This document shows, piece by piece, positions 52,907 to 58,338 of a stretch of DNA of 58,338 nucleotides (the stretch's first letter is position 1; each line of letters starts with the position of its first letter). Made by a program: the position numbers and the translations under genes. This DNA is from Actinomycetota bacterium (lineage in GTDB: Bacteria; Actinomycetota; Actinomycetes; S36-B12). The stretch spans positions 1 through 58,338 of the forward strand of contig VGBL01000011.1 of assembly GCA_016870515.1 (NCBI GenBank), read 5' to 3'. Under the pieces are notes generated by a model. It was given only the letters and a program-made list of their open reading frames with translations. It was not told the DNA's origin and did no database searches.

Positions 52907-53155
52907 ATGGCAGACGATCCCCAGGGCCCGGCTGACATTCTTCGTGCCGTGTGGCAGGGCGTCCCCGGCTCTGTCAGCGATCTCGACGCAGAGTGCAGCC
53001 CCACCAAGGCCTGCCGCAACATGAAGGACGTCACCTTCGACGGCTACGCCGAGGAGGGCGGCGACCTGGCTACGGCCTGGCGCAATACCCTGGCCCGCGA
53101 GGGCAAGCTCGGCTCCGGCTCGCTGGCCGACCTTGTCTTCGGCAACTCCGACTGA
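52907..53155 (+). CDS. Small acidic protein leading the coxDE genes, function unknown
   Basis: 82 residues, soluble and acidic, with two cysteines in DLDAECSPTKACRNM. No family recognised. ATG at 52907 with a perfect AAGGAGG 6 nt upstream, so it is surely translated. It ends 8 bp before the CoxD-like gene and is probably co-transcribed with it. Confidence 0.7.
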   Translation: MADDPQGPADILRAVWQGVPGSVSDLDAECSPTKACRNMKDVTFDGYAEEGGDLATAWRNTLAREGKLGSGSLADLVFGNSD

Positions 53156-53163
53156 CGGCGGCC

Positions 53164-54036
53164 ATGACCACATCCCCCGCTGACCTGAGTATCCCCGGGC
53201 TCACGTCCGTCTTGCGCGACCAGGGCTACATCGCCGACCGCGGCCTGGCCACGGCTCTCCTGCTGTCCCTCAAGCTCGGCAAGCCGCTCCTGCTCGAGGG
53301 CGAAGTCGGCGTAGGCAAGACCGAACTCGCCCGCACCCTGGCGTCGATGCTCGGACGCGACCTCATCCGCCTGCAGTGCTACGAGGGCATCGACGTTCAC
53401 CACGCGCTCTACGAGTGGGATTACGCCCGGCAGATGCTCCACATCCGCTCCATGAGCCAGGCTGATGCTGCGACCTCTGACGATGACCTCTTCGGCGAGC
53501 GCTTCCTGCTCGAACGCCCGCTGCTCCAGGCCTTGCAAGCGGGCGATCGGTGTGTCCTACTCATCGACGAGATCGATCGAGCCGACGACGAATTCGAGGC
53601 CTTCCTGCTCGAGCTTCTCGGCGACTTCCAGGTCACCATTCCCGAGGTCGGCACGATCCGCGCCGAGACCCGCCCCATCGTGATCCTGACGTCCAACCGC
53701 ACCCGCGAGCTCCACGATGCGCTCAAGCGCCGGTGCCTCTACACCTGGATCGGCTTCCCGCCGCCCGATCGCGAGGTCGAGATCGTCCGCACAAGGCTGC
53801 CCGACGTCGGTGCCGCGCTCGCAGGTCAGGTCGTGGCGGCAGTCAATCGCCTGCGCGAGATGGACCTCGAGAAGCCCCCCGGCGTCGCCGAGACCATCGA
53901 CTGGGCCCAGAGCCTCGACGCCCTCGGCGTCGAGGCTCTGACAGACGATGCCGCCATCGACACCCTCGGCGCGGTGGTGAAGGATCGCGACGATCTCGAG
54001 TACGCGACGAAGAGCATCCAGGATGTCGTCGCCTGA
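53164..54036 (+). CDS. coxD: MoxR/CoxD-type AAA+ ATPase
   Basis: 290-residue MoxR-family ATPase. Walker A is LEGEVGVGKTELA at about residues 41-53, Walker B VLLIDEIDRAD at about 131-141, and sensor 1 VILTSNRTREL. CoxD-type proteins act as chaperones that mature the [CuSMoO2] or Mo site of CO dehydrogenases and related hydroxylases. Overlaps the CoxE-like gene by 14 bp. ATG at 53164 has only a weak ribosome site. Confidence 0.88.
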   Translation: MTTSPADLSIPGLTSVLRDQGYIADRGLATALLLSLKLGKPLLLEGEVGVGKTELARTLASMLGRDLIRLQCYEGIDVHHALYEWDYARQMLHIRSMSQADAATSDDDLFGERFLLERPLLQALQAGDRCVLLIDEIDRADDEFEAFLLELLGDFQVTIPEVGTIRAETRPIVILTSNRTRELHDALKRRCLYTWIGFPPPDREVEIVRTRLPDVGAALAGQVVAAVNRLREMDLEKPPGVAETIDWAQSLDALGVEALTDDAAIDTLGAVVKDRDDLEYATKSIQDVVA

Positions 54037-55174
54037 ACCCCAGTCGCATCCCGACGGATTCGACGCACTCTTGGTGGCGTTCGGGCACGCCCTGCGCGGG
54101 GCTGGCCTGCCGGTAGGCACCGACGACATCCTTTCGTTCTGCGCCGGCACCGCCTCGCTCGACGTGACCGATGTCATGGATGTCTACTGGTCGGGGCGCG
54201 CCACGCTCGTGCGTCGCCGCGACCACGTCCCCGTCTACAACGCGGTCTTCCAGCGATTCTTCCTCGACGCCACTGCGGCGTCAGACGACGAGCGCAAGCG
54301 CACGATGCGCTCCTCCGCCACCGCCGGGGCGACCCTCGAGATCCCCAACACCGAGGAGGGCCTCCCCGGACAGATCAGCCCCGAGGAAGCCAAGCTCGGC
54401 TACCTGGCCAGCACGTCCGAGGTCTACCGCCACAAGGCGTTCTCCGAGTGCTCCGACGATGAGCTCCGTCGATTGCGTCGCCTCATGCTGCAGATGCGCG
54501 TGACCCCACCGCGCAAGCGCACGCACCGCACCATGCGCGCCCGCCGGAGCGCCATGCTCGACATGCGTCGCATGGCCCGAGACACCATGCGCTCTCTCGG
54601 CGAGCCGCGCGACCTCGCCTACAAGAAGCGTCGTCACCGCCTGCGTCCCCTCGTGCTCATCCTCGACGTGTCAGGCTCGATGGCCGACTACTCGCGCAAC
54701 CTCCTGCAGTTCGCCTACTCGGCCCGGCGAGCCAACGCGAAGGTCGACGTCTTCTGCTTCGGCACCCGCTTGAGCCGCATCACCAAGGCACTCGATCGCC
54801 GGGATCCCGACGACGCTATGCGGATCGCCGGCGAGGCCGTGCTCGACTGGGATGGCGGCACCCGTATCGGCGACAGCCTGCGGCAGTTCACCCGTGAGGC
54901 ACGACGTTCGCGGCTGGGACGAGGAGCCATCGTCGTCATCTGCTCCGACGGCCTCGATCGCGGCGATCCCCTCGCCCTCGAGGAATCCATGGAGACCCTT
55001 GGCCGCCTGGCCCACCGGATCATATGGGTCAACCCCCACAAGGGCGATGTCGTCGACTACGTGCCCGCCTCCCTCGGCATGATCGTCGCCGACCCCTACA
55101 TCGACGAGGTGCACTCAGGGCACAACCTCGCTAGCCTCGAGCATCTAGCTGCTCGTCTATCGAAGGTGGGTTAG
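54023..55174 (+). CDS. coxE: VWA-domain protein, CoxE-like
   Basis: 383 residues with a C-terminal von Willebrand A domain. The metal-ion-dependent adhesion site DVSGSM is at about residues 214-219, with the later Thr and Asp positions in GGTRIGDSL and CSDGLDRGD. The N-terminal helical region is basic. CoxE-type proteins pair with CoxD in Mo-hydroxylase maturation. Coupled to coxD by a 14-bp overlap. Confidence 0.86.
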   Translation: MSSPEPQSHPDGFDALLVAFGHALRGAGLPVGTDDILSFCAGTASLDVTDVMDVYWSGRATLVRRRDHVPVYNAVFQRFFLDATAASDDERKRTMRSSATAGATLEIPNTEEGLPGQISPEEAKLGYLASTSEVYRHKAFSECSDDELRRLRRLMLQMRVTPPRKRTHRTMRARRSAMLDMRRMARDTMRSLGEPRDLAYKKRRHRLRPLVLILDVSGSMADYSRNLLQFAYSARRANAKVDVFCFGTRLSRITKALDRRDPDDAMRIAGEAVLDWDGGTRIGDSLRQFTREARRSRLGRGAIVVICSDGLDRGDPLALEESMETLGRLAHRIIWVNPHKGDVVDYVPASLGMIVADPYIDEVHSGHNLASLEHLAARLSKVG

Positions 55175-55176
55175 CC

Positions 55177-55464
55177 ATGAGGTTCAGCGTCTCATTGCAG
55201 GCAGAGGGCGATCGCGAGGTCACCCTGGATGAAGTGGTCGAGCTCGCCGATGCGGTGGCCGGCCTGGGCGGCATTGCCTCCGGCTTCGGCACCATGAGCT
55301 ACGGCGCCCAGATCATCGTCGACGCCGAGACATCCGACGAAGCCGTCGAGATCGCCCTCGAGCAGTTCAATCGCGCCGTGGCCAGCACCTCCCTCCCCGC
55401 CTGGCCCGTGGCCCGCGCCGAGACCATCGGCGAGGATGACGACTATGGCGACCTGGACCCCTGA
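55177..55464 (+). CDS. Small acidic protein in the cox region, function unknown
   Basis: 95 residues, mixed alpha/beta (MRFSVSLQAEGDREVTLDEVVELADAV...). It ends in an acidic tail EDDDYGDLDP. No family recognised. 2 bp after the CoxE stop, with AAGGTGGG ahead of the ATG, so it is part of the same operon. Its end overlaps the next gene's start by 20 bp. Confidence 0.65.
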   Translation: MRFSVSLQAEGDREVTLDEVVELADAVAGLGGIASGFGTMSYGAQIIVDAETSDEAVEIALEQFNRAVASTSLPAWPVARAETIGEDDDYGDLDP

Positions 55465-55897
55465 GGTGATTCGCCTCGGCAGCCTCGCCGGCTACTCCTT
55501 CGAGGGCCCTCGATCCCTGGCTGGCTGGACCCCGCCGCATGTGCCTGCCGTCTACGCGATCCTCGCCAAGGGCAATCCGCAACGTCCGCACGAGTTCGCG
55601 GTGATCTACGTCGGCCACTCCGACGACCTCACGACCGAGGGCTTTCCCTTCCGCCACCCCCGATCAGCCGCCTGGGTCAAGCGCGCCGACGGCAAGTTCA
55701 ACCTCCATGCGTGCTGGCTGGAGGTGCCCGGCGGCACACGAGCCCATCGAGAGCAGATCGCCCGCGAGCTCATCGCCATCTACGACCCCAGCTGCAACCT
55801 GGAGAAGTTCGACCAGGCCTGGAAGGACGAGTGGATCGGCGAATACGCCACGCCCGTCACCGACCCATTGACGACGGGCCGCGACCCCCAGCAGTGA
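55445..55897 (+). CDS. GIY-YIG-like protein
   Basis: 150 residues. The order VPAVYAILAKG, then AVIYVGHSDDL, an Arg in the following helix and a late ELIAIYDPSCNLE recalls a compact GIY-YIG nuclease fold (two Tyr, Gly, Arg, Glu, Asn). The second Tyr motif is YVG rather than canonical YIG. Whether it cuts DNA is unknown. ATG at 55445 has GAGG at 55432-55435; the ATG at 55436 abuts that site. Confidence 0.5.
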   Translation: MATWTPEVIRLGSLAGYSFEGPRSLAGWTPPHVPAVYAILAKGNPQRPHEFAVIYVGHSDDLTTEGFPFRHPRSAAWVKRADGKFNLHACWLEVPGGTRAHREQIARELIAIYDPSCNLEKFDQAWKDEWIGEYATPVTDPLTTGRDPQQ

Positions 55898-55933: not shown

Positions 55934-56299
55934 TCAGTCGAGGTTGACTCCCACGCCCTCCATTAGGCGCGTGCGGCGCGTGCCCATAGCGGGGCGCGCC
56001 GTGCCATCGGCAACGTTCTCGTCGTGCTGGTAGGTCGCCCCGACGACGATTCCCTCGCCCATCCCGTAGAGCAGGGGCAGGGCGCCGGCCACGACACGGC
56101 CGGTCGTGTTGATCGACGTCAAGCCGGGCTCGATCGCCTCGGCATCCTTCTTAATCTGCCAGACGAGATCGGCGCACTCCTCGAGGTCTGAGGCAACGGC
56201 CTTGAGCTGCGACCCCACGATGTAGAGGTAGATGGCCAGGCCCGCGATGAGGGCAACGATGTCGGCGACTGACCACCAAGCCAGCGCGCTGGCGCTCAC
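55934..56299 (-). CDS. Small membrane protein E of a five-gene array, function unknown
   Basis: 121 residues. One membrane helix at about 10-30 (VADIVALIAGLAIYLYIVG), then an acidic amphipathic helix (AVASDLEECADLVWQIKKDAEAI) and a second weakly hydrophobic segment (VVAGALPLLYGMGEGIVVG). The last gene of the array and the longest. GTG at 56299 overlaps the previous gene's stop by 4 bp, without its own ribosome site. Confidence 0.65.
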   Translation of the reverse strand: MSASALAWWSVADIVALIAGLAIYLYIVGSQLKAVASDLEECADLVWQIKKDAEAIEPGLTSINTTGRVVAGALPLLYGMGEGIVVGATYQHDENVADGTARPAMGTRRTRLMEGVGVNLD

Positions 56300-56571
56300 G
56301 ACCGCACCTTGTCAAGGACGCGGCCGAGGAAGAGGTGGTGCTCCAGGCCTTCCTGGAGCACCAGTTCAACACCCCCGCCGGTGGCGGTGATCAGCGCGGT
56401 GTCGGCGGTGTTGGCCTGCGCGGCGATAAGCGTCGCCTTGATGGCCGCGACACGCTTGCGAATGCGGGCCACCAGGATGACCAGAATGGTCAGCAGCGCG
56501 GCGACGGCAACAACGACGATGATGCCGAGGCTGTTCGCCACCTGCCAAAGTTGTTCGACCTGGGGATCCAT
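56296..56571 (-). CDS. Small membrane protein D of a five-gene array, function unknown
   Basis: 91 residues. One membrane helix at about 13-35 (SLGIIVVVAVAALLTILVILVA), a basic stop-transfer ARIRKRV, then an Ala/Thr-rich amphipathic helix. ATG at 56571 with GGGAGG 5 nt upstream, 1 bp after the end of gene C. Open frame to 56610 is not used. Confidence 0.65.
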   Translation of the reverse strand: MDPQVEQLWQVANSLGIIVVVAVAALLTILVILVARIRKRVAAIKATLIAAQANTADTALITATGGGVELVLQEGLEHHLFLGRVLDKVRS

Positions 56572-56572
56572 G

Positions 56573-56827
56573 TCAGCCTCCCAGCCGGCTACGGCCGCGC
56601 TTGAGGCCATCGATGATGGCCAGCGCGGATGCGATGGTCTCGTTGAGACCCTTGAGCCCTGCGGTGTTGATCTCGGCCTGCTGAAGCCCTTGCAGAATGC
56701 TGCCCGCCTGGTTGCCGATGCGCGCGGCGAGCATCAGGATCGGCACCACTAGGGCCACCACGGCCAGGACGACGACCAGGCCGATGATGTAGCCGATCAG
56801 CCAGCCCTCATGTCCGGTGAAGTCCAC
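56573..56827 (-). CDS. Small membrane protein C of a five-gene array, function unknown
   Basis: 84 residues. Membrane helix at about 9-34 (LIGYIIGLVVVLAVVALVVPILML), then AARIGNQAGSILQGLQQAEINTAGLKGLNETI, a Gln/Asn/Ala-rich amphipathic helix like that of a receptor stalk. GTG at 56827 with AGGAGG 4 nt upstream. Confidence 0.65.
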   Translation of the reverse strand: MDFTGHEGWLIGYIIGLVVVLAVVALVVPILMLAARIGNQAGSILQGLQQAEINTAGLKGLNETIASALAIIDGLKRGRSRLGG

Positions 56828-56835
56828 GTGACCTC

Positions 56836-57063
56836 CTAGATCGATTCCGCGAAGCTACGCACCGGGGCGAGGCTTGCGTTGACGGACGAGACGACGGGCG
56901 GAACGGTCGACGTCTGGGCGACGATCACCTTGACGCCTCCGTCGAGTGCAGCCAGCGACTTGGAAGTCGCTGCCAGGTGGAAGATGACGCGGAGCAAGCC
57001 GATGGCCGCGGCTGCGATGATCAGCGCGCCGAGGATCAGTGTGATGATGGCTTCGATTGGCAC
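56836..57063 (-). CDS. Small membrane protein B of a five-gene array, function unknown
   Basis: 75 residues. Membrane helix at about 4-28 (EAIITLILGALIIAAAAIGLL), then an Ala/Ser/Val-rich stalk with SLAALDGGVKVIVAQTSTV. GTG at 57063 with AGGAGG 5 nt upstream. 8 bp before gene C. Confidence 0.65.
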   Translation of the reverse strand: MPIEAIITLILGALIIAAAAIGLLRVIFHLAATSKSLAALDGGVKVIVAQTSTVPPVVSSVNASLAPVRSFAESI

Positions 57064-57072
57064 GGGAACCTC

Positions 57073-57327
57073 CTAGCCCAACAGCTTCGAGACGGGGCCC
57101 GCGTAGCGAACCGCTCCATTGGCAACTTCCTTGATGACCCCGTCGGTGGTCTCGAGTAGCTCCGGGGTGTTGTGGAGTTCCCCGATCAGCGCGACCCCTC
57201 CAGCGAGGGTGTCATCTGTGGCGCCGCGGATCCGCTCCGTAGCCGCGAGGAGGCGGTTGAGCAGGGCAACGAGCACCGGCACGATGACGATGAGGAGGAG
57301 CAGGTTGCCGATCATCCATTGGCTCAT
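57073..57327 (-). CDS. Small membrane protein A of a five-gene array, function unknown
   Basis: 84 residues. Membrane helix at about 5-27 (MIGNLLLLIVIVPVLVALLN), then a helical acidic stalk (ATERIRGATDDTLAGGVALIGELH). ATG at 57327 with GGAGG 6 nt upstream, 14 bp after the CoxG stop. Confidence 0.65.
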   Translation of the reverse strand: MSQWMIGNLLLLIVIVPVLVALLNRLLAATERIRGATDDTLAGGVALIGELHNTPELLETTDGVIKEVANGAVRYAGPVSKLLG

Positions 57328-57341
57328 GACATGCCTCCGCT

Positions 57342-57932
57342 CTACCGGCTCGGTGCCGGCTTGTAGGGAAGGAAGAACCGGCCGAAGACGCGCTTGACCG
57401 CGCGCATGAAGGCCGTGAGGCCGATCGCGATGCCGCTAGCAGCCTTGGGCTCGCCCACCGCATAGGGATCCTGCCCCTGGGCGAGCGCCTGCATGCGCAC
57501 CTTCATGGACCCGGCAGTTTGGTCGATGAGCACGCCGGTGACGTCCTGCACGAGCCCACGGCCGTATTGCGCGGCCGCGCCCGAGATCTGCAGGTCCATG
57601 GCGATATTGACGCGAGTGGATGCACCGCCCATGGGCTGCAAGGTGACGTCAAGGACGGTCGAGGCATTGCCCCGGCCCTTCTTGTCGGCACCGACACCGT
57701 CGAGCACGAGGGCCTTCTTGACCTCGTCGCGACTAGTGATCTTGAGCTCCCCGGTGAATTCGAGCTTCACCGGACCTGCCGAGATTACGACGTCGCCCTG
57801 GTAGTGGTCGCCGGCGATCTTGTTGGTCAAGTCCGCGCCGGGGACGCACGCGGCCACGAGCGGCACGTCATCGAAGAACTCCCAAACCTTGTCAACCGGC
57901 TGGTCGATATCGAAGGAGCGGGCAATGATCAT
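57342..57932 (-). CDS. coxG: CoxG-like SRPBCC protein
   Basis: 196 residues. The N-terminal 145 residues are a SRPBCC lipid-binding fold of the CoxG type (RSFDIDQPVDKVWEFFDD and VAACVPGADL are the family hallmarks). The C-terminal tail has hydrophobic segments (GIAIGLTAFMRAV and FFLPYK), which may anchor it to the membrane. CoxG binds quinone-type or lipid partners and recruits CO dehydrogenase to the membrane. Between the CoxL-like gene (4-bp gap) and gene A. ATG at 57932. Confidence 0.87.
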   Translation of the reverse strand: MIIARSFDIDQPVDKVWEFFDDVPLVAACVPGADLTNKIAGDHYQGDVVISAGPVKLEFTGELKITSRDEVKKALVLDGVGADKKGRGNASTVLDVTLQPMGGASTRVNIAMDLQISGAAAQYGRGLVQDVTGVLIDQTAGSMKVRMQALAQGQDPYAVGEPKAASGIAIGLTAFMRAVKRVFGRFFLPYKPAPSR

Positions 57933-57936
57933 ATCG

Positions 57937-58338
57937 TCACTCCCCCCTCATCGGCGGAGCACCGGAGACGTCCTTTCCGGACTGCAGCGCCTCGTAGACC
58001 CGGTTGGGCATGAGCGGCATGTCGATATTGCGGACTCCGGTGTGCTCGAGGGCGTTCATGACCGCGTTGACGAAGGCGGCGGGCCCACCCACGGTCGCGC
58101 ATTCCCCAACACCTTTGGCGCCGATCGGATGATGCGGGCACGGCGTTACGACCTCGTGCAATTCGAAGCCTGGAGTCTCCCATGCGGTGGGCAGCAGATA
58201 GTCCATGAAGTTGGACCCGATGCAGTTGCCCTCCTGGTCGAAGGTGATGTATTGCATGCTCGCCATGGCATAGGCCTCGGTGAGACCGCCCATGATCTGG
58301 CCCTCGACGACCATCGGATTGATACGCACTCCGCAGTC
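57937..58338 (-). CDS. CoxL-like molybdopterin hydroxylase large subunit, C-terminal part
   Basis: Runs off the right edge; the last 133 residues are visible. DCGVRINPMVVEGQIMGGL and HHPIGAKGVGECATVGGPAAFVNAV are typical of CO-dehydrogenase and xanthine-dehydrogenase large subunits, and the Glu in GVGE is the active-site glutamate. The CO-dehydrogenase active-site loop (AYRCSFR in form I) is outside the window, so form I CODH, form II CODH or another hydroxylase cannot be told apart. CoxG, CoxD and CoxE neighbours favour the CODH-type family. Confidence 0.85.
   Translation of the reverse strand, partial: DCGVRINPMVVEGQIMGGLTEAYAMASMQYITFDQEGNCIGSNFMDYLLPTAWETPGFELHEVVTPCPHHPIGAKGVGECATVGGPAAFVNAVMNALEHTGVRNIDMPLMPNRVYEALQSGKDVSGAPPMRGE

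Follow-up and report, generated by a model that had tools for sequence, protein, structure and literature searches.

The window, by which we mean the whole analysed stretch of 58,338 nucleotides, is an entire contig of a 2.4 Mb genome assembled in 61 contigs. It carries five successive small genes on the minus strand, which are named here A to E. Gene A (57327-57073) codes for a protein of 84 aa with one membrane span at residues 5-23 and is HylTM-like, as described below. It is followed by B (57063-56836; 75 aa, span at residues 6-24), which is related to E, C (56827-56573; 84 aa, span at residues 14-32), which is related to D, D (56571-56296; 91 aa, span at residues 17-35), predicted to form a single long helix, and E (56299-55934; 121 aa, span at residues 11-29), which has an extra C-terminal tail. 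A home-made codon-usage gene caller picked exactly these five genes at this place. A preliminary description, made from the sequence alone, had listed five minus-strand genes of 75-121 residues, a membrane helix near each N terminus, four GGAGG ribosome sites and a fifth gene coupled by a 4-bp overlap, and all of this was borne out. Each protein contains exactly one hydrophobic span near its N terminus, GGAGG precedes A, B, C and D, and the stop codon of D overlaps the GTG start of E by four bases (GTGA). The dN/dS ratio was 0.03-0.17 in all 20 comparisons of A-E between the window and four relatives. A-E are thus under purifying selection, and the low ratios, together with the ordered retention in related loci, show that they are not chance open reading frames.

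Immediately upstream of A lies coxG (57342..57932, minus strand, 196 aa; Pfam COXG, E 6e-16), whose product has a domain of the lipid-binding type (COXG, plus a weak Polyketide_cyc2 match). It is preceded by the C-terminal 133 aa of coxL (57937..58338, minus strand), which is interrupted by the contig end before the AYRCSFR motif, so the active site falls outside the window. We take this motif to be the signature of form I CoxL. It is present in the form I CoxL of the related locus L023, a protein that among PDB entries matches the CO dehydrogenase large chain 8uem best. The window CoxL was assigned to form I because its last 133 residues are 86% identical to the L023 protein and an N-terminal coxL piece on contig C53 of the same genome, assumed to belong to the same gene, is 88% identical to it. 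The C-terminal hydrophobic stretch of CoxG was compared in three sequences only; no value above 1.2 was found in the window, against 1.44 in L023 and 1.97 in the CoxG of pHCG3 (L317, 15371-15988). A-E might replace the C-terminal anchor of CoxG in the window clade.

The other side of the array is met by a convergent block on the plus strand. It consists of a conserved 82 aa protein adjoining coxD (52907..53155), coxD itself (53164..54036; AAA/MoxR-type ATPase of 290 aa, 74% identical to the L023 coxD, whose best Pfam match is AAA_5), coxE (54023..55174; VWA protein of 383 aa, VWA_CoxE E 1e-47), a conserved 95 aa protein (55177..55464) and a conserved 150 aa protein (55445..55897), which is the next gene after E on the opposite strand. 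The 82, 95 and 150 aa proteins have no Pfam match. The array had been placed between coxG and the convergent coxDE genes, which is correct on the coxG side, but two convergent genes (150 and 95 aa) separate E from coxE. In relatives with longer contigs, coxM-coxS-coxL-(xdhC)-coxG-A-B-C-D-E meets a convergent 82 aa-coxD-coxE-95 aa-150 aa block. Homologues of the 82, 95 and 150 aa proteins occur in 66, 76 and 79 of the best 80 related loci, respectively, and they are possibly new accessory proteins of CO dehydrogenase (CODH).

To learn how far the set is retained, 84,980 species genomes were scanned with an alignment of E. The scan yielded 209 confirmed loci; we retained the best 80 of them and examined every one. 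All five genes in the order A-E were found in 72 of these best 80 of 209 loci; A is matched twice in one of them and E twice in another. The remaining eight (E alone in four, B-E in four) are truncated by the contig start, which lies no more than 122 bases from the beginning of the first gene seen. Within the same 80, coxG lies upstream of A in each of the 71 loci whose sequence extends that far, the 150 aa gene comes after E on the other strand in 78, and coxL was found in 62, with AYRCSFR visible in 51. The view that the five genes act as a single unit, linked to coxG and in relatives also to coxL of form I, is supported.

When E is compared, the nearest relatives prove to be genome bins of actinobacteria, many of them labelled Candidatus Nanopelagicales. 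The labels of the loci include Nanopelagicales, Nanopelagicaceae, Planktophila, Ilumatobacteraceae and Acidimicrobiales, a few bins looking mislabelled, and one named strain, Rhizocola hellebori NBRC 109834 (L311), carries the cluster. A published survey describes CO dehydrogenases in Nanopelagicales S36-B12 and in Ilumatobacteraceae (PMC10305171). The distribution of A is patchy within the order (48 of 166 genomes). Across the phylum, E was detected in 27 of 396 genomes, and a wider profile for D detected that protein in 41 of them. A tblastn search of a plasmid collection with E gave no match.

The orientation of the proteins in the membrane was deduced from 73-80 sequences of each of the five families. 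The mean number of K/R in the 15 residues after the span was 1.8-3.9, compared with 0-0.33 before it. This excess places the N terminus outside, and the tails are predicted to be cytosolic. A and E carry a slightly negative net charge after the span, and the topology assignment is therefore based on the K/R counts. Helical periodicity after the span exceeded that of shuffled sequences in B (p 0.033), C (p 0.0035) and E (p < 0.0005); it received no significant support in A (p 0.11) or D (p 0.59). An amphipathic helix had been ascribed to all five proteins, and by this measure the claim holds for B, C and E but not for A and D. Structure models were made for D and E, with low pTM in both. The D model is one helix from residue 3 to 90 (pTM 0.43; mean pLDDT 81, falling to about 70 along the stalk), and the E model shows a helix at residues 3-63, a short helix and a low-confidence tail (mean pLDDT 71, pTM 0.36). 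No credible family was found for A-E in searches of Pfam, NCBIfam and PHROGs, in which E was also used as an alignment, and PDB profile searches of A, B, C, D and E gave chance-level matches only.

In TatA, an amphipathic helix comes after a membrane span that runs N-out, C-in. The same arrangement in B, C and E would suit a dedicated translocation or pore system of the TatA type. This reading was dropped for want of a family match; A-E reach the cut-off of no Pfam family, no TatA family appeared up to E 1, and we regard such a system as very improbable. A cytochrome-like reading was also rejected, with neither a family match nor ligands to favour it. The CODH-linked A-E sets contain no conserved cysteine and no conserved histidine within the membrane span. 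The histidines kept in at least 80% of the CODH sets are H29 of B, just past the span, and H78/H79 of D, near the C terminus. Heme or iron-sulfur binding inside the membrane is therefore unlikely, and direct electron transfer by A-E is unsupported. The preliminary description had offered a scaffold that docks the enzyme or passes electrons; the docking scaffold fits the predicted topology and the long helices, but with no conserved ligands the passing of electrons does not stand.

The D tail HHLFLGRVL occurs in 75 of 76 D proteins from the best 80 of the 209 CODH-type loci. In E, residues R108, R109, R111 and G117 are present in all 80 aligned rows from the same best 80 of 209, and taken singly, positions P103, R108, R109, R111 and G117 are retained in 79-80 of the 80. 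The strict pattern RP[AS]xGxRRxR fits only 33 of the 80 E proteins because residue 102 varies. The GALPLLY motif of E is conserved in the 80 loci by construction, as the genome scan used that pattern.

More distant relatives of the set form five-gene groups, mostly in the order C-D-E-A-B, adjoining [NiFe]-hydrogenases. Profiles of the CODH sets (24-25 sequences per family) were compared with those of the hydrogenase sets (3-4 sequences per family), and each CODH protein paired with one hydrogenase protein. The hydrogenase proteins had been assigned by gene position, first suggested by best matches, so the real test is the gap between diagonal and off-diagonal scores. The diagonal scores of A-E were 99, 63, 83, 79 and 85. 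A mere resemblance of small membrane helices would draw on the fact that hydrophobic spans inflate similarity, and within one set C does resemble D and B resembles E in the profile comparison; the small hydrogenase profiles and the knowledge of HylTM here by description rather than by sequence also speak for it. Nevertheless, equally hydrophobic off-diagonal pairs scored only 2-36, and the five profiles matched none of the 692 other window ORFs and none of 1810 ORFs in eight other CODH, coxG or hydrogenase loci. These controls comprised CODH loci of Afipia carboxidovorans pHCG3, Thermomicrobium roseum and Nonomuraea, hydrogenase loci of lower identity from Cupriavidus necator pHG1, Streptomyces fungicidicus and Mycobacterium intracellulare, and the coxG loci of a same-genus genome and of the second coxG in the window's genome. 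We give chance resemblance very little credence.

Three loci outside the training set, L224, L225 and L232, have exactly five such genes between the small and the large hydrogenase subunit, and the five profiles match all five proteins there at 28-59 bits. This is the layout described for HylTM1-5, five short single-span proteins of the group 1l [NiFe]-hydrogenase encoded in the order small subunit, five genes, large subunit (PMC9561532). The view that no described component resembles the array was thus overturned. Like HylTM1-5, the window set consists of five short single-span proteins in one block, and its profiles match one-to-one in the hydS-five-hydL loci. It differs in following coxG of a CO dehydrogenase instead of lying between hydrogenase subunits, in its order A-B-C-D-E as against C-D-E-A-B, and in the D and E tails, which were not seen in the hydrogenase-linked copies. 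Compared by described layout and not by published sequences, A-E are probably the CO-dehydrogenase version of HylTM1-5, a judgement made jointly with the stalk role proposed below. If the HylTM numbering follows the gene order from the small subunit, we infer that C-D-E-A-B corresponds to TM1-TM5. No hydrogenase large subunit was matched in the window genome at E 1e-80. Searches of titles, abstract openings and text passages, mostly without subscription papers and supplements, found no literature tying such proteins to CO dehydrogenase; a report of the link beyond these sources is possible. On sequence grounds, this would be a known but uncharacterised hydrogenase-linked set in a new context, on a different enzyme.

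The hydrogenases concerned are of more than one kind. Among PDB entries, the large subunit of L104 best matches 5aa5 (466 bits; next 174), which is the group 1h enzyme of Cupriavidus necator (PMC9561532). For the group 1m hydrogenase, two small membrane proteins of 82-92 aa have been noted (PMC9561532). L104, L106, L222 and L226 share the companions described for that group (CooC-type ATPase, TPR, BirA and protease; PMC9561532), and all five proteins, against the two described, were found in these loci, which we place in group 1m by neighbourhood only. L104 has a single C-D-E-A-B block; in L106, L222 and L226, the subunit genes stand between C-D-E and A-B. Genes like coxD and coxE (MoxR ATPase and VWA) lie beside hydrogenase sets in L103 (6052-8227) and L107 (1712-3818), although a Mo-Cu site is not expected there. 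Both CODH- and hydrogenase-linked A-E sets also come with a trio of proteins about 190-240 aa long, which all combine a single span with a coiled-coil-like body (L098 2899-4868, L099, L104 12328-14401, L108 6259-8375, L103, L109, L214 and L220). The trio was found in none of the best 80 of the 209 window-type loci, and it may be a second shared module.

The linkage to both enzymes was counted in 396 Actinomycetota genomes with 51 D sets, using a single fixed limit of 12 kb and counting coxL at 55% or higher identity to L023. Within this limit, 35 of the 51 D sets lie near an enzyme, 12 near coxL and 23 near a hydrogenase large subunit, compared with about 0.7 expected by chance. The linkage is banded by identity. 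A D set is near coxL in 8 of 8 cases at 80% or higher identity to L023 (window included), in 1 of 6 at 66-80% and in 3 of 50 at 55-66%; for hydrogenase large subunits, by identity to L104, the counts are 6 of 9 at 65% or higher, 15 of 20 at 48-65% and 1 of 37 below 48%. This pattern indicates that the module marks particular clades of both enzymes and not the enzymes in general. Of the 50 form-I-like CoxL in the 55-66% band, 47 lack a D set within this distance, so most CODH works without the module. The idea that homologues occur only with coxL was dropped once the hydrogenase loci appeared. Homologues without coxG or coxL linkage had been named as evidence against the proposal; they do exist, with 23 sets beside hydrogenases against 12 beside CODH, and they widen the reading rather than refute it.

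For the other 16 D sets, neither enzyme lies within 12 kb. Some linkages were missed because contigs are broken or sets are split, for example in G225, in which A-B lies at a coxL locus (L214) and C-D-E elsewhere (L100). Four of the 16 are weak matches (E 1.7e-4 to 9.4e-4). In G269 (L105), a hydrogenase small subunit adjoins at the contig end; in G172:C13 (L229), a C-D-E set stands next to hydrogenase genes whose small and large subunit matches are split into numerous fragments; and in G247:C71 (L098), coxG is present. Eight further sets are unexplained, among them L097 and L102, which adjoin an ORF of about 1600 aa, and L230 and L231, in which A-E are present and no enzyme was found. L097, L100 and L102 have C-D-E without A-B beside this ORF; in L100 it contains a DUF255/thioredoxin-like domain, and a gene of the penicillin-amidase type comes next.

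The five proteins of 30 loci were joined for an unrooted tree, which separated a CODH side from a hydrogenase side with 100% ultrafast bootstrap. The CODH side consists of the window clade, the clade of L098/L099 with coxL of 71% identity and the C-D-E sets by the ~1600 aa ORF. The HHxFL motif of D occurs in all 14 tree loci on this side and in none of the 16 on the other, L218-L220 included. The four hydrogenase-linked E proteins in the alignment lack the window-type tail, and the E proteins of L097 and L100, on the CODH side, likewise are without most of it. L218-L220 adjoin a different CODH lineage (coxL of 55-56% identity, AYRCSFR present) yet group with the hydrogenase side, whose gene order they retain; a position inside rather than beside that side has only 72% support. 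In the simplest reading of these sequences, the partner enzyme would have changed more than once.

Taken together, these data lead us to propose that A-E probably form an enzyme-independent, membrane-anchored heteromeric stalk that docks cytosolic trace-gas oxidases for access to quinone; the complex, the docking and the quinone handling are what we infer here. The five spans would lie in the membrane as a heteromeric bundle, and the cytoplasmic tails would form a helical stalk. Such a stalk would position an enzyme that is soluble on its own above a site of menaquinone extraction and reduction in the membrane. With CODH, CoxG may carry or present quinone at the stalk site, and the conserved tails of D (HHLFLGRVL) and E would be the likely docking surfaces for CODH or CoxG. 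The M. smegmatis CODH was found mainly in the cytosol (PMC6794299), the side that the A-E tails are predicted to face. For the hydrogenase Huc, a hydrophobic-lined stalk able to carry menaquinone was proposed from cryo-EM and AlphaFold modelling; HucM is required for the Huc oligomer, and its C-terminal region was modelled as a hydrophobic-lined tube from the enzyme to the membrane (PMC10017518). By analogy, this helical stalk joining an atmospheric-gas enzyme to the membrane may serve as a model for the role of A-E. Unlike A-E, HucM is one protein of 188 residues that forms a tetramer and is peripheral on the membrane (PMC10017518), and PDB profile searches with each of the five proteins did not find it at any E value up to 10. 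CoxG is likewise a proposed link between CODH and the quinone pool (PMC13240472); it differs from A-E in being a lipid-binding-type domain and not a one-span helix protein. ORFs with at least three spans were called in six of eight hydrogenase-linked loci by a crude gene caller, and they overlap other genes or lie kilobases from the module; a cytochrome b elsewhere is possible.

A simpler role would be that of a plain membrane anchor or clustering scaffold, with no part in quinone movement. The simple one-span architecture is consistent with it, as is the hydrophobic C-terminal stretch of CoxG, weaker in the window clade than in pHCG3 among the three sequences compared. One anchor would be enough for this purpose, however, and five distinct subunits retained across CODH and hydrogenase loci suggest a defined heteromer, which makes a plain anchor unlikely.

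The metal sites of CODH and [NiFe]-hydrogenase are unrelated, and so are their maturation pathways. This bears on the possibility that A-E act in assembly or maturation, as a membrane platform for building the enzyme that stands outside the working electron path. The set adjoins coxD/coxE in the window, similar genes stand beside the two hydrogenase sets of L103 and L107, and A-E have no conserved cofactor ligands, all of which would suit such factors. On the other hand, the pHCG3 CODH locus, which is without the module, also has MoxR and VWA genes, and the common feature of enzymes that share the module despite unrelated metal sites is electron delivery to the membrane. We consider a maturation role rather unlikely and retain the docking stalk as the preferred reading.

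CODH and the group 1l/1m hydrogenases consume CO and H2 at trace levels, and their electron path to the membrane is open or has been argued only recently (CoxG, HucM). The shared five-part module suggests a common answer for unrelated enzymes, and the uncharacterised HylTM proteins gain a second, independent context. Tentatively, and with somewhat less confidence than we place in the stalk itself, one five-protein stalk could be a portable quinone-coupling device used on MoCu-CODH of two lineages and on several clades of group 1 [NiFe]-hydrogenases. If true, such a portable stalk would set the route by which these trace-gas oxidases gain access to the quinone pool.
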